NCBI RefSeq assembly: GCF_000187895.1
Contig: NZ_DS990135.1
Span: 62,001-126,000 of the forward strand
DNA length: 64,000 bases
Direction of reading: 5' to 3'
Source: Phocaeicola plebeius DSM 17135
GTDB lineage: Bacteria; Bacteroidota; Bacteroidia; Bacteroidales; Bacteroidaceae
Made by a program: the position numbers and the translations under genes. Under the pieces are notes generated by a model that ran no database searches, had not been told where the DNA came from, and was given only the letters and a program-made list of their open reading frames with translations. This document shows, in pieces, positions 9,400-60,443 of this stretch. Numbering within the stretch: position 1 is the first letter of the stretch; every line of letters starts with the position of its first letter.

Positions 9400-9779
9400 A
9401 CTTCGTAAAACGCTCTGGTCCCATTGTACAGCCAAAAGAAAAAAATATTCCACGGCATATTTTTCTTTTCGCTGCAACTCCCTTTTTATAAACCATCAAC
9501 CCTTTACACGAGATCTTCTCTTCCCTGTATTCGTACATCCGCTTTCGGGCTGCTGATATGAATTGTGTCGCAAAGGTATCTGTCATGTCTTTCTTGTATG
9601 CAAGGTCTCTGCCTGACGGTTCACGACAAAATCTCCACGCTCCGCTTTGCGGAGGTAGTATTTGGTTGTGAAACCCTGCATAAAGAGCCATGCCACCTTT
9701 TAAGGCGACATAATTAAATCAAGCCCGAAAGTAGCTGATTGCTACAAGAGGGAAAAAAGAAAACTTAAAATTCAAAGTT
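9400..9779 (+). promoter_or_regulatory. Structured leader B1
   Basis: Non-coding leader sharing long blocks with 11.33-11.65 kb. In order: CTTTTCGCTGCAAC block, GCTTTCGGGCTG, box CAAAGGTA (9571-9578), AAATCTCC (9629) with perfect hairpin CTCCGC/GCGGAG (9640-9654) then GTAGTATTT (9655-9663), then hairpin GTAGC/GCTAC near 9736, AAGAGGGAAAAAAG and the ATG. GTATTT ends 117 nt before the ATG, against 116 nt in B2. Confidence 0.75.
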
Positions 9780-10073
9780 ATGGCAAACTATGCAACAAAC
9801 ATTTTTCATGCAAGTACAGAAAACAAGCAAGACCTCGATAAAATAGAGGCATTTCTGGACGATAATTTCAACGGCTTTGTCAATCGGTATAGTGATATAG
9901 TAGATGCCGAATTTTCTTCCCGTTGGGAATACCCGGAAAAAGAAATCGACGAACTGGTAGCTTCTTTGGAAGCCAAAGATAAAATCTATATCCGCATACT
10001 GACATACGAGTTAGAGGACGAATACGTGAGCTTTCGGATATTCTCGCAAGGCAAGTGGGACATTAAGCTGTAA
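9780..10073 (+). CDS. Small acidic protein, unknown function
   Basis: 97 residues, no signal peptide, no membrane segment. Contains a rich run of acidic and aromatic residues (FLDDNFNGFVNRYSDIVDAEF) and ends FRIFSQGKWDIKL. I do not recognise a named family. First gene of a five-gene + strand set (9780-11186) behind leader B1, a position typical of mobile-element accessory proteins. ATG directly follows the leader consensus, which supports the start. Confidence 0.7.
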   Translation: MANYATNIFHASTENKQDLDKIEAFLDDNFNGFVNRYSDIVDAEFSSRWEYPEKEIDELVASLEAKDKIYIRILTYELEDEYVSFRIFSQGKWDIKL

Positions 10074-11261: not shown

Positions 11262-11651
11262 CTCTCGGCAGACATGCCGGCGCAATACCTTTTTTATCCT
11301 CATAATCATTATACAGCCCGGAGATCCATTTATATTTCTTTTCGCTGCAACCCTTTTATATAAGCTATCGGACCTTTTGCAAGAGACCTTCTTTTCCCTG
11401 TGTTCGCACATCGCTTTCGGGCTGCCTGATATGAATTGTGTCGCAAAGGTACTTGTCATGCCATTCTTGTATGCAAGGTCAAAGCCTGACGGTTCACGAC
11501 AAAATCTCCACCCTTCGCTCCGCACGGGTAGTATTTAATCGTGAAACCTTGCATAAAGAGCCATGACACCTTTGGGGGCGACATAATTAAATCAGGCCCG
11601 AAAGTAGCTGGTGCTACAAGAGGGAAAAAAGAAAACTCAAAATTTTAGATT
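11262..11651 (+). promoter_or_regulatory. Structured leader B2
   Basis: Second copy of the B leader, closely similar to B1 by eye but with many substitutions. Contains the CGCTGCAACCC block, CAAAGGTA (11444-11451), AAATCTCC (11502), a weaker hairpin ACCC/GGGT and GTAGTATTT ending at 11536, then GTAGCtggtGCTAC and AAGAGGGAAAAAAGAAAAC. The distance from GTATTT to ATG is 116 nt. Confidence 0.75.
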
Positions 11652-11939
11652 ATGGCAAACGATGTAACAAATTCAAATGGACGAGTAACGGTAGACGAAG
11701 TAATACACAGAGATTCGGTTTTCAGATACCAACTGTTAGACCGCTTACGGTCAGACTGCGAGTATTACCTTAATTACGGTAACAGACATCCCAAATCTTT
11801 ATGGGCTGGCGACGAAAAATTGCAAATTGAATTTATGATAAAACTGCATGAGAGTTTCAAAGAGGACGAAAAACCGGAGTGGCTTACGATGGATAAAATT
11901 TTGGAATACAGTAAGAGAATGATAGCTCAAGAAGAATAA
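11652..11939 (+). CDS. LPD11-domain protein
   Basis: 95 residues. The central FRYQLLDRLRSDCEYYLNYG followed by KSLWAGDEKLQIEFMIKLHE and PEWLTMDKILEYSKRM matches the LPD11 module (large polyvalent protein-associated domain 11), which is found in anti-restriction and other conjugation-delivered proteins of plasmids and phages. Here it stands alone behind leader B2. It starts MAN..., as does the gene after leader B1. Role in transfer or host takeover is inferred from the family. Confidence 0.75.
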   Translation: MANDVTNSNGRVTVDEVIHRDSVFRYQLLDRLRSDCEYYLNYGNRHPKSLWAGDEKLQIEFMIKLHESFKEDEKPEWLTMDKILEYSKRMIAQEE

Positions 11940-12966: not shown

Positions 12967-13149
12967 ATGAAAAAGATCGAGAACAATTTCGCAGTAACCG
13001 GATTCGTGGCAAAAGATGCCGAAGTCCGTCAGTTCACCACCACAAGTGTCGCACGTTTCCCGCTGGCAGTAGCCCGTCAGGAGAAGAACGGTGAGGAAAC
13101 CAAGCGTATATCCGCTTTCATGAACATTGGAAAAGCCACACTAATTTGA
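12967..13149 (+). pseudogene. ssb: Single-stranded DNA-binding protein, truncated
   Basis: The first ~54 residues (MKKIENNFAVTGFVAKDAEV...RISAFMNI) match the N-terminal half of the OB-fold SSB encoded at 59.1 kb. Right after AFMNI the sequence enters the terminal repeat of an IS21 element (13127 on) and the frame ends with GKATLI. The C-terminal half of the OB fold is absent, so it cannot bind ssDNA normally. Third ssb of the window. Confidence 0.9.
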
Positions 13150-13307: not shown

Positions 13308-14888
13308 ATGACAAAATTAAAGAATTTATTGCGCTGTTACGCATCTGGTATGGGAATAAGAAGTATTTCTAGTACTTTCCATATATCTCGTAACACCCTC
13401 CGCAAGTATGTCCGTAAATTCCAAGAAAGTGGCTTGTCCATGGAGCAAATTCTGTCGCTTTCAGATGATAAGCTGGCGGACTTGTTTTCAGATGGGCATT
13501 CTCGTAACCGTCCGCCTTCTGCTCGCAAGTTGGAGTTAGAGGCACTTGTTCCTGATTATGTGAAACGGCTTAGCAAGAAGGGTGTTTCTATCTTATCTCT
13601 TCACACGGAGTATCTCAAAACTCATCCTAATGGTTACCAGTATTCTACTTTCAAACACGCAATCCATGCCTACAGATGTCAAACACGAGCCGTAGGACAT
13701 GTAGAGCACCTTGCTGGCGATCAGATGTATATTGATTATGCAGGTGATAAGCTAGAGATAGTCGAAGAACAGACGGGTGAGGTGCGGAAGGTAGAGGTTT
13801 TTGTGGCTACCCTTCCATGCAGTCATTACACCTATTGCGAGGCAGTGTGGTCGCAGAAGAAGGAAGACCTTATCGTTGCTTGCGAGAATGCTCTTCATTT
13901 CTTTGGTGGTGTACCCAAGGCTGTTGTGCCTGACAACTTAAAATCAGCCGTTATCCGCAGTGATCGTAATGAGCCTGTTATCAATGACGACTTCGCTGCT
14001 ATGGCTGAATTTTATGACATGGCTGTTTATCCAGCTAGGGTGCGCCGTCCCAAGGACAAGGCACTGGTTGAGAATGCTGTAAAGCTAATGTATCGGTCGG
14101 TATATGTAGATATTGAAGGGCAAATTTTCCATAATCTAGAATCACTTAATGTTGCTATACGCACATCTTTAGAAGCATTTAACAGCCGTAGATTGAGTGG
14201 GCGTAAGGAATCCCGTCAAGAACTATTTGAGGAAATGGAAAAAGATTTTCTTCGTCCTCTTCCTACCGCTCGCTATCAGATGAAGTCTAGAAAGTCTGCT
14301 ACTGTCATGGCTAATAGCTTCGTTATGCTAAGAAAGCATAGTTATAGTGTTCCAACAGAGTATATCGGCAAACGTATGGAGCTTATTTACGATAATGACA
14401 ATGTTCAAATCTACTATGGGTTAAAGTTAGTTACCATCCATCAGCGAGATGATACTCCCTATACCTACTCACAGAAAGATGCACATAATCTTCCTGGTCA
14501 TCATGGTAGCTTTGAAAAGGATTTGGAGGAAATATATCAACGGGCAGGGCAAATAGACAACATCCTTCTGCTTTATCTCAAGGAAGTCGCTACGCAGATG
14601 AAATATCCACCAAAAGCCTTCCGCTCTTGCCGTGGTATCATGTCGCTGGAGAAGAAGTATGGCATGGCTCGTCTAGTAGCAGCTTGTAACTGTGCCTCGG
14701 AAGGACGACGCTATGGCTATAATGAGATAAAGGATATACTACAGAAGGGTGATGATGCTCCCTATATATCTATGGATGAAGATAATATGGAGCTATCTCC
14801 TGAATATAAACCAAAAACTCATAAGAACATACGAGGCAAGGATTATTTCTCAAAGCAATTATCCAATAATAGCAAACAATTAAAGTAA
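13308..14888 (+). CDS. istA: IS21-family transposase IstA
   Basis: 526 residues. N-terminal helix-turn-helix (IRSISSTFHISRNTLRKYVRKF, here about residues 16-38), then an rve-type DDE integrase core: D in DQMYIDYAGDKLEI (about 140), D in AVVPDNLKSAV (about 205) and E in the KALVENAVKLMYRSVYVDIE stretch (about 262). C-terminal Mu-type beta region. Full length for the family. It cuts and joins IS ends, working with the ATPase IstB encoded 6 nt downstream. Confidence 0.96.
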   Translation: MTKLKNLLRCYASGMGIRSISSTFHISRNTLRKYVRKFQESGLSMEQILSLSDDKLADLFSDGHSRNRPPSARKLELEALVPDYVKRLSKKGVSILSLHTEYLKTHPNGYQYSTFKHAIHAYRCQTRAVGHVEHLAGDQMYIDYAGDKLEIVEEQTGEVRKVEVFVATLPCSHYTYCEAVWSQKKEDLIVACENALHFFGGVPKAVVPDNLKSAVIRSDRNEPVINDDFAAMAEFYDMAVYPARVRRPKDKALVENAVKLMYRSVYVDIEGQIFHNLESLNVAIRTSLEAFNSRRLSGRKESRQELFEEMEKDFLRPLPTARYQMKSRKSATVMANSFVMLRKHSYSVPTEYIGKRMELIYDNDNVQIYYGLKLVTIHQRDDTPYTYSQKDAHNLPGHHGSFEKDLEEIYQRAGQIDNILLLYLKEVATQMKYPPKAFRSCRGIMSLEKKYGMARLVAACNCASEGRRYGYNEIKDILQKGDDAPYISMDEDNMELSPEYKPKTHKNIRGKDYFSKQLSNNSKQLK

Positions 14889-14894
14889 ACAACT

Positions 14895-15683
14895 ATGGAA
14901 CTAAATAATAATAAGACAGCACCTATTGTGCAAGAAATGGATAAGAATCAGTTATCTCTTGATTTAATGCATAGAATGAGGCTTACGGGTATGGCAACTG
15001 CCTTTGAAGAAAGTCTAACAACTACAATTGCAGATACGATGACACCAGATGCCTTTTTATCTTGGCTCTTATCTCGAGAATGGGACTATCGTTCTGCAGC
15101 AGCCATTGAAAGACTCATAAAATCAGCAGGGTTTAGATATAAAACCTATCCTGAGCAAATAGATTATAATATCAATCGCAACCTTAGCCAAAACAAAATG
15201 GAGAGAATACTCTCACTTGATTTTATCAAGCAAGGACGCAATATATTTATTACTGGTTCATCAGGAACTGGTAAAAGTTTTATCGCTACAGCTATAGGCT
15301 ATCATGCTTGTAAAAATGGTATTAGAACGATGTATGCTAACATGTCAAAGCTGCTGGGGACACTTAAGGTTGCCAAGAACAAAGGAACGTTAGAAACAGA
15401 GCTAAAGAAGATAGAGCGATGTCGCTTGTTAATCCTCGATGATGCCTTCCTTGTACCTGTAGATGCAAAAGAGCGTCCTATATTACTTGATATTATAGAA
15501 GATAGGCATGAAAGGAAGTCGATTATCATATCTTCTCAACTTCCTGTAGACAACTGGTATGATGCAATAGGCGACCCTACCGTGGCAGATGCTGTACTAG
15601 ATAGAATTGTGCATACCTCATATCAAATAGAACTAACTGGAGAGAGTCTTAGAAAGATAAAAGCAAAGAATATTACCAAGTAA
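14895..15683 (+). CDS. istB: IS21-family helper ATPase IstB
   Basis: 262 residues, DnaC/IstB-like AAA+ protein. Walker A GSSGTGKSF near residue 120, Walker B CRLLILDDAF near 180, sensor-like SIIISSQLPVDNWYD near 215. It remodels target DNA for IstA. Intact; the small 6-nt gap to istA suggests coupling. Together with istA the element looks potentially active. Confidence 0.96.
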   Translation: MELNNNKTAPIVQEMDKNQLSLDLMHRMRLTGMATAFEESLTTTIADTMTPDAFLSWLLSREWDYRSAAAIERLIKSAGFRYKTYPEQIDYNINRNLSQNKMERILSLDFIKQGRNIFITGSSGTGKSFIATAIGYHACKNGIRTMYANMSKLLGTLKVAKNKGTLETELKKIERCRLLILDDAFLVPVDAKERPILLDIIEDRHERKSIIISSQLPVDNWYDAIGDPTVADAVLDRIVHTSYQIELTGESLRKIKAKNITK

Positions 15684-47373: not shown

Positions 47374-48078
47374 TTTGCGTTCACGCAGTATTCTTTCCCA
47401 CCCTCCCCTTCATCGGAATGACTGTTCTCATTTCCGGTTTACCCGTAGTCATCCGCTATGCGGCTGATTATGGGCAAACCAGAAAAGAGAAGTTCCAAAC
47501 GTGGGCGGGATTGCAATGGTCATCATCCGGAGCTTCGGCATTGCCGAAACAACCTCCTTCTTCCGTATTGCAGCCCCGTCCTTTTACCGTTTGTCCCGGC
47601 AGTCCGTTGCTAACCCGTTCCCCCCTGCCACTTGTGGCAGGGAGATAGGAATACGGTTTTGCAGGCAAAACCGTATGGCTTGTTTTACTTTCCGTACTGC
47701 CCTTTTCCTAGTTTTCTGCCTCCCTTAATGTGCGTTTTTCATAGCCCCATCTGAGACCCTTTGTTTTTGAACGGCAAATTTATTTCGGTGGATGGATACG
47801 AAAGAGTTCCGGTCTTCGCCCTTTGTCCCGAAAAAAATAACGCCGGACGGCTTCGCTGTCCCCAACATTTTTTGTCGTCCAAAACTTTTCTTAATCCCTC
47901 CTTCCTTATTGTTGTGTGCCGTAAAAAAAAGGCTCATAAACTCAGATGGGGCATGAAAGCTCAAAAAAAAAGTCGGCAGAAAGAAAAGGCCATCCCGGAA
48001 AGGGGTTTTAAAAAAAGGTCTTTAAATCTAGCTGAAGCATAAAATTAGAAGTTTAACAATCCCAAAAAACAACGAGTT
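47374..48078 (+). promoter_or_regulatory. Structured leader A1
   Basis: About 690 bp, very similar to A2 and A3. Order: GCGTTCACGCAGTATTC, CCCACCC, P1 hairpin GGTTTACCC/GGGCAAACC (47436-47480, one A-C mismatch) around CCGCtatGCGG, P2 TTCGGC/GCCGAA, P3 CCCTGCCAC/GTGGCAGGG, P4 ATACGGTTTTGC/GCAAAACCGTAT (47651-47676), box CAAATTTA (47775-47782), long-range stem CCCCATCTGAG/CTCAGATGGGG (47745-47755, 47941-47951), then GGTCTTTAAATCTAGCTGAA and the gene start 36 nt after GCATAA. Confidence 0.8.
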
Positions 48079-48558
48079 ATGTCACGAGTACACTATTTAG
48101 AAGGAGATTATGAACAGTTAGTTATTAATGAAACGATAGACGGTCTTTTTTCCAGTTATCGTATAGACCGCAATTCATTGCCAAAAGGATTTTTCCTTTA
48201 TGAGATTAGATGGGATGACAGCTTATCTTCATTGGCAGAGATTAGCCCCTCTGTGGTGGTGAATCATGCAGGTTCATTCATTACAAAGTCACCCCTTGAA
48301 TTTGATGCAAACAATAGCATACGGATAACCTATACCAATTTTATCGAGTTCTGCCAGTTTGGTGAGTGGGCTTATGAGAAACTGGCTGTATTGGATTGTA
48401 ATTCCGGTAATGTTGCGGTGATAAGCCCAGACAGGAGATTGCAGACCACTGAAGAGATTGAGATTTTTTTGAGTGGGCATTGTGGCTATCATCTGAGTGA
48501 GATTAATTGGATGGTGATGAAAGGCGATGTGCTGTTTTTGAACGAGAACGATTTTTAA
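48079..48558 (+). CDS. Hypothetical protein behind leader A1
   Basis: 159 residues. Begins MSRVHYLEGDYEQLVINETI, with the core LPKGFFLYEIRWDD and a repeated tryptophan/phenylalanine pattern. Resembles the small 'LPD-like' proteins of conjugative elements in style only. First gene of the five-gene run 48079-50325. Confidence 0.62.
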   Translation: MSRVHYLEGDYEQLVINETIDGLFSSYRIDRNSLPKGFFLYEIRWDDSLSSLAEISPSVVVNHAGSFITKSPLEFDANNSIRITYTNFIEFCQFGEWAYEKLAVLDCNSGNVAVISPDRRLQTTEEIEIFLSGHCGYHLSEINWMVMKGDVLFLNENDF

Positions 48559-50443: not shown

Positions 50444-51136
50444 TTTGCGTTCACGCAGTATTCTTTCCCACCCTCCCCTTCATCGGAATGACTGTTCTCA
50501 TTCCCGGTTTACCCGTAATCATCCGCTATGCGGCTGATTATGGGTAAACCGGAAAAGAGAAGTTCCAAACGTGGGCGGGATTGCAATGGTCATCATCCGG
50601 AGCTTCGGCATTGCCGAAACAACCTCCTTCTTCCGTATTGCAGTCCCTTCCTTTTACCGTTTGTCCCGGCAGTCCGTTGCTAACCCGTTCCCCCCTGTCA
50701 CTTGTGGCAGGGAGATAGGAGTATGGTTTTGCTTGCAAAACCGTATGGCTTGTTTTACTTTCCGTACTGCCCTTTTCCTTGTTTTCTGCCTCCCCTAATG
50801 TGCTTTTTTCATAGCTCCATCTGAGATCCTTTGTTTTTGAACGGCAAATTTATTTCGGTGGATGGATACGAAAGAGTTCCGGTCTTCGCCCTTTGTCCCG
50901 AAAAAAATAACGCCGGACGGCTTCGCTGTCCCCAACATTTTTTGTCGTCCAAAACTTTTCTTAATCCCTCCTTCCTTATTGATGCGTGCCGTAAAAAAAA
51001 GGCTCATAAACTCAGATGGGGCATGAAAGCTCAAAAAAAAAGTCGGCAGAAAGAAAAGGCCATCCCGGAAAGGGGTTTAAAAAAAGGTCTTTAAATCTAG
51101 CTGAAGCATAAGTTTAATTTTAATAGATAAAAGACT
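50444..51136 (+). promoter_or_regulatory. Structured leader A2
   Basis: Same plan as A1. P1 is GGTTTACCC/GGGTAAACC (50506-50514, 50542-50550): both sides changed relative to A3, keeping pairing, with two further G-C pairs outside. P3 has one T-G wobble and P4 two. Box CAAATTTA at 50845-50852. ATG 26 nt after GCATAA. Confidence 0.8.
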
Positions 51137-55089: not shown

Positions 55090-55914
55090 GTTGTTTTTTG
55101 CGTCCACTTAGTTTTTTCCCACCCACCCTTTCAGCGGAGTGACTGCCCGGCAGTCTGTTGCTTACCCATATGTCCTAGCCTTTTAGGGCTGTAGATAGGT
55201 AGTTGGATATTTCGCTGCCAAATCGGCAGTCCGCTTCAATCGTTTGCTTGCTTTTCTCCGAGTGGAGCCTTTCTGCTTTTCCGGTGGTGTAATCTTCTTT
55301 TATTGGAAACAGGTGTAGTGGCTGTATGCCTGTGTGGTTATGTTCTCCCGCAGAATCCGCAAGTCAGTTCTTCCGTTGCAGCTTTTCATTTTATCGTGCA
55401 GTCACTTTTTTCGATACGTGGAATATGATATGCTTCATTCTTCGGCTTCATTTTTTTAAAAGGAATTGCAGATGTTTCTTCCGGTGTGTCGATAGGCGGC
55501 TGACCATCTTTTCGGGATGTGCCATGCTTGCTGTCTAACCGGTTGTTTTTTGCATCCTTTCCAAACCTGTTACTGATTTTCAAGTTTTGTCTTTTTCATA
55601 TCATTTTTTAGGGAAGTCAAATCATTTTCCGTTGCAAATATAGATTGTTGCTAACCCCTTTTACGGGGATAAGGGGACGATTCACAAACACCACGTTGTT
55701 ATTCGTCTGAAATCTTCCTTTTTTTGCCTTGCACAAAAAGCGTATTTAACCCGAATTATTCGTTGCCATCTTCACCAATAAAAAAGTTACAAATCTTCCT
55801 TTTTCCGGCCAGCATAAAAAGAGTATTTATATCTTTTTTCATGGTGTCCCCCAAAGCCAACAATCAGTTATTGCACTGTAAAATTGATTAATTAACTTCT
55901 AAAAAATCAGAGAT
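55090..55914 (+). promoter_or_regulatory. Structured leader D1 in front of ssb
   Basis: Starts like A leaders (GCGTCCACTTAGT, CCCACCCACCC, GGAGTGACTG) but about 175 bp, including P1 and P2, are missing compared with D2. Then CGGCAGTCTGTTGCTTACCC, small hairpin AGCC/GGCT, a 25-nt segment complementary to the ssb 3' end (55231-55255), box CAAATATA (55635-55642) and two AAATCTTCC ... GTATTT modules ending at 55747 and 55828. GTATTT ends 87 nt before the ATG. Confidence 0.78.
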
Positions 55915-56250
55915 ATGAAAAAGATTGAAAATTCATTCGCAGTAACAGGCAGGATTTGTAGGGATGCAGAAATCCATTTATTCGAAATAGTAAAGGTTGC
56001 ACACTTCTCTATTGTGGTCAGTCGCATAGGCAAGATAAATGAAGAAAAAACATTTGTTTCCTCTGTTATGAAAGTTGAAGCCTGGAGTAAGATGGAAGAC
56101 CGCTATGCTTTTTGGATACTGCAAAAAGATGTACTGATTACCGTTGAAGGCTACTTTAAGCCGGAAGAATGGACGGATTCTAAAAGTGGGGAGAAACGTA
56201 ACCGCATTGTGATGGTAGCTACTAAGTTCTACCCGACTCCGGAAAAATAA
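55915..56250 (+). CDS. ssb: Single-stranded DNA-binding protein, divergent copy
   Basis: 111 residues. OB-fold SSB (NSFAVTGRICRDAEIHLFEI; VEGYFKPEEWTDSKSGEKRN) but with many replacements in the N-terminal half compared with the 59.1 kb copy, while the second half is nearly identical. Lacks a long acidic C-terminal tail. May be specialised or under weak constraint. Leader and terminator are similar to those of the other copy. Confidence 0.86.
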   Translation: MKKIENSFAVTGRICRDAEIHLFEIVKVAHFSIVVSRIGKINEEKTFVSSVMKVEAWSKMEDRYAFWILQKDVLITVEGYFKPEEWTDSKSGEKRNRIVMVATKFYPTPEK

Positions 56251-56270
56251 GAACCCCCGGACTAAAAAGA

Positions 56271-56318
56271 AAAAGCAATCAAACGATTGAAGCGGCACAA
56301 GGTCGCTTCAATCGTTTG
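56271..56318 (+). terminator. Terminator of ssb-1, complementary to its own leader
   Basis: Perfect 15-bp stem CAAACGATTGAAGCG/CGCTTCAATCGTTTG (56280-56294, 56304-56318). The left side from 56271 is complementary (24 of 25) to 55231-55255 in leader D1. Confidence 0.85.
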
Positions 56319-56356
56319 CTAATGCGGCAGAAGATTATAAAAAAAGTGTTTCTTAA

Positions 56357-58127: not shown

Positions 58128-59098
58128 TCACATGTTTCCCACCCACCCTTTCAGCGGAGTGACTGTCCCCGTTTCAGGATTTCTCATAGTCACTCGCAGG
58201 CTCCGTGATTGTGTGAAATCCAGGAATGGGGAAGGCAAAGGAGAGAGGCATATCCGGTCTGCTTTCGGAGCTTCGGCCACATCGAGACAACCTCTTTCCG
58301 GCGGCTATGCCACTCTCCTTTTATTTGCCCGGCAGTCTGTTGCTTACCCATATGCCCCAGCCTTTTAGGGCTGTATATAGGTAGTCGGATATTTCGCCGC
58401 TAAATCGGCAGTCCGCTTCAATCGTTTGCTTGCTTTTCTCCGAGTGGATGCCTTTCTGTTTTTCCGGTTGTATAATCTTCTTTTTCCGGAAACAGTTGTA
58501 GTGGCTGTATGCCTGTATGGTTATGTTCTCCCCGCAGAATCCGCAAGTCTGTTCTTCCGTTGCAGCCTTTCATTTTATCGTGCAGTCACTTTTTTCGATA
58601 CGTGGAATATTGTATGCTTCATTCTTCGGCTTCATTTTTTTAAAAGGAATTGCAGAGGTTTCTTCCGGTGTGTCGATAGGCGGCTGACCATATTTTCGGA
58701 ATGTGCCATGCTTGCTGTCTGACCGGTTGTTTTTTGCATCCTTTCCAAACCTGTTGCTGATTTTCAAGTTTTGTCTTTTTCATATCATTTTTTAGGGAAG
58801 TCAAATCATTTTCCGTTGCAAATATAGATTGTTGCTAACCCCTTTTACGGGGATAAGGGGACGATTCACAAACACCACGTTGTTATTCGTCTGAAATCTT
58901 CCTTTTTTTGCCTTGCATAAAAAGCGTATTTAACCCGAATTATTTGCTGCCATCTTCACCAATAAAAAAGTTACAAATCTTCCTTTTTCCGGCCAGCATA
59001 AAAAGAGTATTTATATCTTTTTTCATGGTGTCCCCCAAAGCCAACAATCAGTTATTGCACTGTAAAATTGATTAATTAACTTCTAAAAAATCAGAGAT
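58128..59098 (+). promoter_or_regulatory. Structured leader D2 in front of ssb
   Basis: Fuller version of D1. From CCCACCC on it keeps P1 as GGATTTC/GAAATCC (58177-58183, 58215-58221) with an inner TCAC/GTGA, a sequence unrelated to that in A leaders but in the same place. Then GGAGCTTCGGCC, CGGCAGTCTGTTGC, AGCC/GGCT, the 25-nt segment 58413-58437 complementary to the ssb 3' end, box CAAATATA (58819-58826) and two AAATCTTCC ... GTATTT modules ending at 58931 and 59012. GTATTT ends 87 nt before the ATG. Confidence 0.8.
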
Positions 59099-59497
59099 AT
59101 GAAAAAGATTGAAAATTCATTCGCAGTAACAGGTTTTATCGGTAAGGATGCAGAAATCCGTAGTTTTGAAACAGCAAGCGTAGCACGCTTTTCTATCGCG
59201 GTCAGCCGTGCAGACAAGACAGGTGAAGAAACCTCTTATGTTTCCGCTTTCATGGGGATTGAAGCCTGGAGAAAGAATGAAGCACTGGATTCCTTCGATG
59301 TATTGAAAAAAGGTGAGCTGATAACCGTTGAAGGCTACTTTAAGCCGGAAGAATGGACGGATTCTAAAAGTGGGGAGAAGCGTAACCGCATTGTGATGGT
59401 AGCCACCAAGTTTTATCCGGCTCCGGAAAAAGAAGAAGAAAAACCGGATCAGCCTAAACAGAAGGCTGTCTCTAAAAAGAAAAAAGCAAGCAAATGA
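59099..59497 (+). CDS. ssb: Single-stranded DNA-binding protein
   Basis: 132 residues. OB-fold: MKKIENSFAVTGFIGKDAEI, SVARFSIAVSRADKTGEETS, VEGYFKPEEWTDSKSGEKRN, plus a charged tail (EKEEEKPDQPKQKAVSKKKK) instead of the usual acidic DDDIPF-type tip. Likely coats transferred single-stranded DNA. Best preserved of three copies. Confidence 0.92.
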   Translation: MKKIENSFAVTGFIGKDAEIRSFETASVARFSIAVSRADKTGEETSYVSAFMGIEAWRKNEALDSFDVLKKGELITVEGYFKPEEWTDSKSGEKRNRIVMVATKFYPAPEKEEEKPDQPKQKAVSKKKKASK

Positions 59498-59525
59498 TTG
59501 AAGCGGCCTAGTGCCGCTTTTTTTT
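59482..59525 (+). terminator. Terminator of ssb-2
   Basis: AAGCGGC/GCCGCTT (59501-59507, 59513-59519) followed by T8. The stretch 59482-59506 is complementary (24 pairs plus one G-T of 25) to 58413-58437 in leader D2. Confidence 0.88.
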
Positions 59526-59544
59526 GCTACATATCCGAGAGTGT

Positions 59545-60251
59545 TTTTGCGTTCACGCAGTATTCTTCCCCACCCTCCCCTTCATCGGAATGACTGTTCT
59601 CATTCCCGGTTTGCCCGTAGTCATCCGCTATGCGGCTGATTATGGGCAAACCAGAAAAGAGAAGTTCCAAACGTGGGCGGGATTGCAATGGTCATCATCC
59701 GGAGCTTCGGCATTGCCGAAACAACCTCCTTCTTCCGTATTGCAGTTCCTTCCTTTTACCGTTTGTCCCGGCAGTCCGTTGCTAACCCGTTCCCCCCCTG
59801 TCACTTGTGGCAGGGAGATAGGAATACGGTTTTGCAAGCAAAACCGTATGGTTTGTTTTACTTTCCGTACTGCCCTTTTCCTTGTTTTCTGCCTCCCCTA
59901 ATGTGCTTTTTTCATAGCTCCATCTGAGATCCTTTGTTTTTGAACGGCAAATTTATTTCGGTGGATGGATACGAAAGAGTTCCGGTCTTCGCCCCTTTGT
60001 CCCGAAAAAAATAACGCCGGACGGCTTCGCTGTCCCCAACATTTTTTGTCGTCCAAAACTTTTCTTAATCCCTCCTTCCTTATTGTTGTGTGCCGTAAAA
60101 AAAAGGCTCATAAACTCAGATGGGGCATGAAAGCTCAAAAAAAAAGTCGGCAGAAAGAAAAGGCCATCCCGGAAAGGGGTTTTAAAAAAAGGTCTTTAAA
60201 TCTAGCTGAAGCATAAAATTAGAAGTTTAACAAACTAAGTAGCAGAAGTAT
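59545..60251 (+). promoter_or_regulatory. Structured leader A3
   Basis: Near copy of A1 with some single-base insertions (CGCCCCTTTG, CCCCCCTGTC). P1 GGTTTGCCC/GGGCAAACC (59608-59616, 59644-59652) is fully paired. Box CAAATTTA at 59948-59955. The shared end runs to GTTTAACAA (about 60233). Confidence 0.8.
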
Positions 60252-60443
60252 ATGCAAATCATTCAATTTGTTTTTTCGGTCATCATCGCTCTTTGTGCAG
60301 TGGCTATGTTTGTCGGAGCGGTAATAACGCCAAGTCCGATAAAGGTTGTGTCGGTTACGTTGTTGGCTCTTATTTGCCTATTCTCCTTGTTTCTCGTGAA
60401 ATTGGCTTATTGTGAAATGAAATCTAAAAATGATATACTATGA
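60252..60443 (+). CDS. Small membrane protein (63 aa)
   Basis: Two hydrophobic segments (FVFSVIIALCAVAMFVGAVI; VTLLALICLFSLFLVKLAY). Stop overlaps the pcfK start (ATGA). Unknown. Confidence 0.65.
   Translation: MQIIQFVFSVIIALCAVAMFVGAVITPSPIKVVSVTLLALICLFSLFLVKLAYCEMKSKNDIL

Follow-up and report, generated by a model that had tools for sequence, protein, structure and literature searches.

An inverted copy of the whole gene precedes a family of Bacteroidales ssb genes and may act as a single-strand promoter

Two leader-plus-ssb units occur in the window (the whole 64,000 nt stretch of DNA analysed here), with a regulator/HipA pair between them (names from the plasmid record), and in both the leader matches the 3′ end of its own gene in inverted orientation. 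The initial annotation had described this match in each unit and had noted that the two 3′ ends differ from each other while keeping it, and these points hold. In particular, 58413-58437 and the reverse complement of 59482-59506 are identical at 24 of 25 positions, the remaining position being a G-T; 55231-55255 likewise matches 56271-56295 at 24 of 25 positions; and the two differing 3′ ends each match their own leader at 24/25. In a search of the 64 kb, the unit 2 match has an E-value of 2e-7 and lies inside an 89 nt alignment to 59509-59422, and the unit 1 match has an E-value of 3e-5. The features of the window are as follows.

58385-58834, minus strand: copy arm of unit 2, an inverted degenerate copy of the ssb2 transcription unit (ends approximate)
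58413-58437, plus strand: leader segment equal to the ssb2 3′ end, the best-kept part of the copy arm
58819-58826, minus strand: putative −7 box TATATTTG of the copy strand, unit 2
58839-58852, no strand assigned: small hairpin separating the −33 region from the −7 box in the copy arm of unit 2
59050-59057, plus strand: ssb-arm counterpart of the −7 box, AGTTATTG, not a consensus box
59099-59497, plus strand: ssb2 coding sequence (SSB, PF00436)
59482-59538, plus strand: ssb2 3′ end and terminator, within the inverted homology
55231-55650, minus strand: copy arm of unit 1 (ends approximate)
55635-55642, minus strand: putative −7 box TATATTTG of the copy strand, unit 1
55915-56250, plus strand: ssb1, a diverged paralogue shortened at its C-terminus
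59955-60176, no strand assigned: putative shorter inverted-repeat promoter with a minus-strand box TAAATTTG at 59955 and its partner arm at 60057-60176, preceding the ORF at 60252 and PcfK-PcfJ
50852-51086, no strand assigned: putative shorter inverted-repeat promoter preceding a phosphoribosyltransferase gene (51137; name from the plasmid record)
47782-48059, no strand assigned: putative shorter inverted-repeat promoter preceding the ORF at 48079 (LPD28 domain per the plasmid record); its end is taken from the repeated leader

Extent of the inverted copy

The reverse complement of 58385-58783 aligns to the entire ssb2 gene, from its ATG to its terminator (284 of 448 alignment positions identical, E = 1e-26), and with other gap costs the inverted homology also covers the 5′ UTR and, in many loci, the promoter region. 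Judged from these alignments, the 25 nt matches are the best-kept piece of an inverted, degenerate copy of the whole ssb transcript, from 5′ UTR to terminator. Across 77 units, an ungapped match of at least 24/25 within 35 nt of the stop codon is present in only 3 (unit 1's own 25 nt match sits just outside this range and is therefore absent from the count), and the mean best 25-mer is 17.6 near the stop codon vs 16.1 mid-gene. By this comparison, the ssb 3′ end is hardly special for pairing in the relatives, and the 25 nt piece is not conserved. Pairing between leader and terminator as a unit of its own was rejected because the near-stop 25-mer is barely above the mid-gene one; of the proposal that the match allows pairing within the transcript or within ssDNA, it is the ssDNA half that is supported, with the whole gene as the pairing partner.

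It had also been suggested that the matching leader segment is what remains, after a tandem duplication, of the right arm of an older ssb terminator. Although a right arm of the same sequence lies past the stop codon of ssb1 (about 56304-56319), this explanation is refuted: the homology runs through the whole inverted coding region and the 5′ UTR, and the copy also occurs in loci outside this tandem arrangement. A minus-strand coding gene within the copy was rejected on its broken reading frames and the lack of a codon-position signal, and an Rfam RNA identity was rejected since Rfam families at gathering score gave 0 matches across the window.

The gene of unit 1 (ssb1, 55915-56295) is a decaying paralogue, with ends near-identical to those of ssb2, a strongly diverged middle and a shortened C-terminus; its relatives in G437 and G449 carry further stops, while leader 1 of the window remains 96% identical to leader 2 over 773 nt. 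The hairpin behind the ssb1 stop codon has no T-run, so that this unit may now serve the HipBA-like genes downstream.

Spread of the copy and its fit to its own gene

Units of this ssb family were collected by DNA similarity, by protein similarity alone and from plasmid and phage records; 129 tblastn hits yielded 82 distinct units after partial starts, short upstream DNA, missing stops and duplicates were dropped, and the later loci L135-L187 lie outside the 82. With each leader compared to its own gene, the inverted copy is present in 81 of the 82 units, L090 being the sole exception, and in 56 of the 57 units from the protein search alone. It usually lies about 240-600 nt before the ATG, and up to about 710 nt in the plasmid group. 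The inverted match has a mean score of 51.3 vs 13.8 in the same orientation, which is the noise level. Among the 53 genes tested in one half of the pMMCAT plasmid (67 features annotated; reference record pMMCAT_BxylCL11T00-2, 98,239 bp), only ssb has a copy (z = 52.5; next best 2.4). Further, the copy accompanies 4 of 4 ssb genes from viral contigs (z from 4.7 to 28.1), and 0 of 11 genes made up of the housekeeping and tra-operon ssb of the window's genome (z = 0.9 and −1.1) and nine distant ssb genes (z at most 1.3).

The protein-search records with the close family bear Bacteroidales names (one is named Bacteroidota only), and 11 of 295 genomes drawn from the class, own genome included, have a match, only 2 of them close; from these searches the close ssb family seems restricted to Bacteroidales. 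Within the plasmid collection, 80% or more of the unit is present in 29 records, and 24 of the 39 matching records match at 99% or higher.

Remnants and neighbours of these units were also observed. A third ssb (12967-13149) is broken off after about 54 codons and its leader still has a copy arm and a box; it lies beside ORFs at 13308-15683 that we take to be transposase-like, and the fragment recurs 78 kb away, at G000:C1:153393. A leader scrap in another genome (L017:1501-1724) includes the 25-mer region, lacks ssb and adjoins tRNA-looking sequence. On a related plasmid (L126:7102-8760), an AcrIIA9-family Cas9 inhibitor (by annotation) lies downstream of ssb, as in anti-defence leading regions. 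A noncoding block is repeated four times in the window (47394-47629, 50464-50686, 58135-58350 and 59566-59788), with a 67 bp inverted repeat at 59597-59663; the block upstream of unit 2 resembles the other three at 69%. The pMMCAT-like plasmid sequence shares a contig (G000:C1) with ORFs at 70-2817 of the window, presumably SusC/SusD-like, which would reflect either a cointegrate or an assembly join.

The counts of run lengths, deletions, tracking, 25-mers, alignment profile, spacing and hairpins leave out L090 and units with coding lengths below 300 or below 340. The loci are related, not independent, and 27 loci with proteins less than 85% identical were used for tracking, own-gene fit, fold energies and terminators. 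The own gene is the best fit for the copy in 26 of these 27 divergent loci, with mean scores of +59 for the own gene, −12 for other genes and −33 for the shuffled copy. At positions where two genes differ, both copies track their own gene in 13342 of 24324 comparisons and are crossed in 217, a count that is inflated by alignment and for which the cross-locus own-versus-other score serves as guard. When all 82 units are ranked, close relatives included, the own gene comes first in only 38; it is among the top five in 74 and falls below that in 8, including unit 1 and L123, so that gene and copy can part over short times.

The match is equal at codon positions 1, 2 and 3 (0.79, 0.79 and 0.77, respectively), and thus carries no coding signal; G-T wobbles show no preference for the template strand (1083 vs 1156). 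Deletions in the copy are frequent, often 4-5 nt long, and fall at positions common between loci (z = 13.5), and the longest perfect run is shorter than its permuted counterpart in 71 of 77 units (10.6 vs 14.0). Simulated decayed copies show a weaker effect of the same kind (61-79% also fall under permutation) and, across six settings, no bump of 4-5 nt deletions; these simulations are a rough control, as their scores of 104-158 lie above the real mean of 58. Read as sequence patterns, the short perfect runs, the shared deletions and the tracking would picture a pairing that is kept and imperfect.

Promoter boxes, spacing hairpin and predicted folds

Promoters of the sigma-ABfr type have a TTG element roughly 17-21 nt upstream of TAnnTTTG. 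On the copy strand, this Bacteroides −7 box is placed to match the ssb mRNA start, perfectly in 71 of 81 units and with at most one mismatch in all 81 (the best box in a range of 57 positions; the background is 94 of 1218 windows, with these promoters counted in). Between −220 and −36 of the ssb strand, a perfect box is present in 0 of 81 units and a one-mismatch box in 60; L090, which has no copy, has a perfect box at −87 upstream of ssb. Terminators were found in 23 of 27 genes vs 1 of 27 copies, as expected of a non-template strand and not of an independent RNA gene. The one-sided boxes and terminators thus place the start signal on one strand, and the message and its stop on the other. In the alignment profile, the −7 box matches at 0.54 between flanks at 0.78 and 0.71, and the stretch from −32 to −9 is poorly matched (0.24-0.41).

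In 20 distinct promoters, a TTGG or TTGA on the −33 side is followed by 4 nt, a palindrome of 11-14 nt, 16 nt and the −7 box. Their −33/−7 spacing is 32-35 nt when read linearly and 21 nt without the palindrome; the 8 and 16 nt flanks were preset by the analyst, so the value of 21 follows from them, and the evidence lies in the pairing of the arms at that place. The hairpin stem varies in sequence yet covaries, with 79 of 80 Watson-Crick pairs across the 20 promoters (L099, one of 21 rows, is excluded as a Prevotella-type promoter picked in error; its inclusion gives 80 of 84 vs 52.7 ± 3.2 for dealt arms). The pMMCAT type has linear spacings of 37-45 nt among those listed, which become 18-28 nt once the picked hairpin is removed. 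The window's own unit is left with 28 nt, or 22 nt if neighbours unpaired in the fold are also removed (hand count), and the register argument is therefore weaker there. Promoters of the Prevotella type lack the side hairpin and have their boxes 17-18 nt apart in linear sequence, so that their −7 box could also work in dsDNA. Box and spacing agree with those of sigma-ABfr promoters, though not cleanly in the window's own type (28 or 22 nt).

Folds were computed with DNA energy parameters on the ssb template strand (the window minus strand) as ssDNA. The model predicts that this strand folds back over the gene in 10 of 10 loci, with 244-326 pairs between the arms, compared with 4-140 pairs at higher energy when the copy is shuffled. 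Across 27 loci, the template strand gains 9-107 kcal/mol over its shuffled copy (mean 45.5 vs 40.6 kcal/mol for the other strand), and it gains more than the other strand in 20 of them. In six detailed folds, the flanks of the promoter box are paired with the ssb arm in 5 and the side hairpin is extruded in 5; the −7 box is open only in L029 and L058 and nearly fully paired in L022, L088 and L117, and in L012 the start is paired locally. A pre-melted −7 box is borne out only partly by these predictions. As in a promoter of the Frpo kind, the boxes lie in or beside the duplex in the six predicted folds (partly local in L012). According to these calculations, the ssb template strand, when single-stranded, would rebuild a promoter duplex with the ssb arm as its template.

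Short-armed versions of this layout also stand before three other gene modules of the window. Inverted-repeat promoters with the box TACCTTTG were also seen at 9578-9780 and 11451-11678, before small ORFs of another element, and one arm of the latter extends into the first codons at 11652. In all, 87 loci have 124 boxes with an inverted partner on the ssb-template strand vs 7 on the other (0 of 440 and 1 of 205 in the shuffled-arm control). With the ssb units set aside, the counts are 58 vs 0; the 58 comprise 28 distinct sequences and come from 45 of the 87 loci. Such a one-sided bias would be expected if it is always the same strand that enters the recipient. As with Frpo, elements of this layout stand directly before ssb (81 of 82 units) and other genes, and these would be early-acting genes.

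A candidate single-strand promoter, its rivals and known systems

During conjugation, the relaxase gene is by rule the last to enter the recipient. Among the matches listed, the ssb strand carries a relaxase of 466-471 aa at 24-30 kb downstream of ssb in pMMCAT and likewise in contigs of G437, G438 and G440, with 470-471 aa in these contigs, while G451 has one of 315 aa, 18 kb downstream on that strand. The pMMCAT relaxase forms a pair with MobC at the start of the record, beyond the tra operon. Under the relaxase-last rule, these positions imply transfer of the ssb template strand, and relaxases on the opposite strand 12-35 kb upstream, in pMMCAT, G437, G469 and G455 (among the matches listed), imply the opposite polarity. 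The ssb gene is far from the likely oriT, which counts against the reading that follows. The transferred strand may be the ssb template strand.

We propose, with a probability of roughly 0.65, that the copy belongs to an Frpo-like ssDNA promoter for expression right after conjugative entry, stretched over the whole gene. The proposal draws on what the sequences contain, namely the copy, its long-term tracking of its own gene, the boxes, the covarying hairpin, the predicted fold and the strand bias, and from these we infer the transferred strand, transcription itself, RNA release and the shut-off in dsDNA. In the single-stranded state of the ssb template strand, such as that following conjugative entry, its copy arm would fold onto the ssb arm. 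The resulting bulged duplex, roughly 400-470 nt long, would extend over the promoter and all of the gene, with the copy arm as the non-template strand bearing the sigma-ABfr −33/−7 boxes. In many loci, extrusion of the small hairpin would bring these boxes to a spacing of about 21 nt; RNA polymerase would transcribe the ssb arm into ssb mRNA, while the copy arm would replace the missing strand and let the RNA be released. Complementary-strand synthesis would put the boxes out of register and leave the promoter weak or off. A cover over the full gene would be useful in that polymerase on a bare strand leaves an RNA-DNA hybrid, from which a second strand would free the message, and in that the first SSB must be produced without SSB.

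The canonical box on the copy strand in 71 of 81 units, the tracking of the own mRNA sequence and the normal linear spacing of the Prevotella-type promoters would also suit a transcribed mimic, a minus-strand noncoding RNA gene that imitates the ssb mRNA and titrates a regulator or SSB. We regard this as improbable: a cis-encoded small RNA has its own promoter and terminator, and only 1 of 27 copies has a terminator; the linear spacing is 32-35 nt in 20 promoters; the promoter region, too, forms an inverted repeat with the ssb side; and a short-armed version of the layout stands before other genes. A slightly smaller chance is given to a non-functional inverted duplicate that gene conversion or hairpin mismatch repair holds similar. 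It would account for a match that is equal at all codon positions without wobble preference, for units without short-term tracking and for the excess of deletions of 4-5 nt, which are of a size overlooked by MutS-type repair, but conversion tracts would cluster, whereas the interruptions are more even than chance (10.6 vs 14.0, 71/77; partly an alignment effect). The promoter box kept on one side only, the covarying side hairpin and the one-sided strand bias at other genes also speak against it.

The plus strand is predicted to pair as well, which would allow a leader RNA that pairs with the joined ssb mRNA and silences read-through transcripts or affects termination; this is very unlikely, as it leaves the perfect minus-strand box, the spacing hairpin and the short versions unexplained, the minus strand gains more energy in 20 of 27 loci, and the 3′ end is hardly special. 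We attach equally little weight to a single-strand initiation site, in which the folded strand would chiefly prime complementary-strand synthesis instead of ssb expression. Frpo is reportedly both a promoter and a source of primer RNA, going by the title of Masai and Arai 1997, but priming needs neither an arm along the whole gene to the terminator nor a placement before several gene modules.

If the copy is indeed an Frpo-like promoter, a broader claim may follow, to which we incline a little less strongly: that Bacteroidales conjugative elements have their own class of ssDNA-specific promoters, in which the ssb fold-back spans the whole gene, the strand brings its own imperfect non-template strand, the first SSB would be made before the complementary strand or SSB is present, and arm and gene would have coevolved while the protein diverged by more than 30%. 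In the literature consulted here, Frpo expression from incoming ssDNA is described for F-like and related plasmids; a dominant gut order would then have its own version, with a searchable signature (a one-sided −7 box, a split −33/−7 and an inverted partner) that would mark the entering strand and the first-acting genes. It would further make it directly testable whether a second strand is required for nascent RNA to come off a single-stranded template, and would assign a function to leader DNA that annotations either list as small hypothetical genes or skip.

In the sections of PMC9849209 used here, single-stranded F-plasmid Frpo folds into a stem-loop that rebuilds −10/−35 boxes, and early ssbF expression in transconjugants depends on Frpo2. 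A large survey, in the parts cited here, places leading-region SSB genes on the transferred strand and reports stimulation of Frpo by SSB, and the stem 'bacteroid' is absent from its main text (PMC11541004). As in the Frpo and ssi regions described in these parts of the two papers (F plasmid Frpo1/Frpo2, ColIb-P9), the elements here are noncoding and stand before ssb and other entry genes (PMC9849209, PMC11541004). The best hairpin before ssbF in the F plasmid has arms at −364 to −206 and −198 to −47, and is presumably Frpo2; it stops 47 nt short of the ssbF ATG, whereas the Bacteroidales stem spans the whole gene, and ssbF, unlike the Bacteroidales ssb, has no inverted copy (z = −0.3). The leading genes of F run toward oriT (gene directions from the annotation, with oriT where we take it to be). 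Unlike F Frpo, the Bacteroidales elements further have boxes of the sigma-ABfr type, whose spacing is set in many loci by a side hairpin. The region before ssbF scores 19 and 15 against the window leader (null 13.0 ± 1.8, one pair only). By this comparison, sequence similarity to F Frpo is at most weak, and the claim is that the elements may work like Frpo, not that they descend from it.

Searches of openly licensed PMC papers listed no Bacteroides ssDNA promoter or inverted ssb copy. In the portions of PMC7366714 used here, sigma-ABfr promoters consist of a −7 TAnnTTTG and a TTTG motif around −33; compared with such ordinary promoters, a palindrome parts the boxes in the 20 distinct promoters described above. 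Also described there are small RNAs from mobile or susC loci of Bacteroides, the DonS-type cis-antisense RNAs and RteR; DonS is divergently encoded (PMC7366714). In contrast, the copy mostly has no terminator, and a minus-strand RNA from it would be sense-like to ssb, not antisense.
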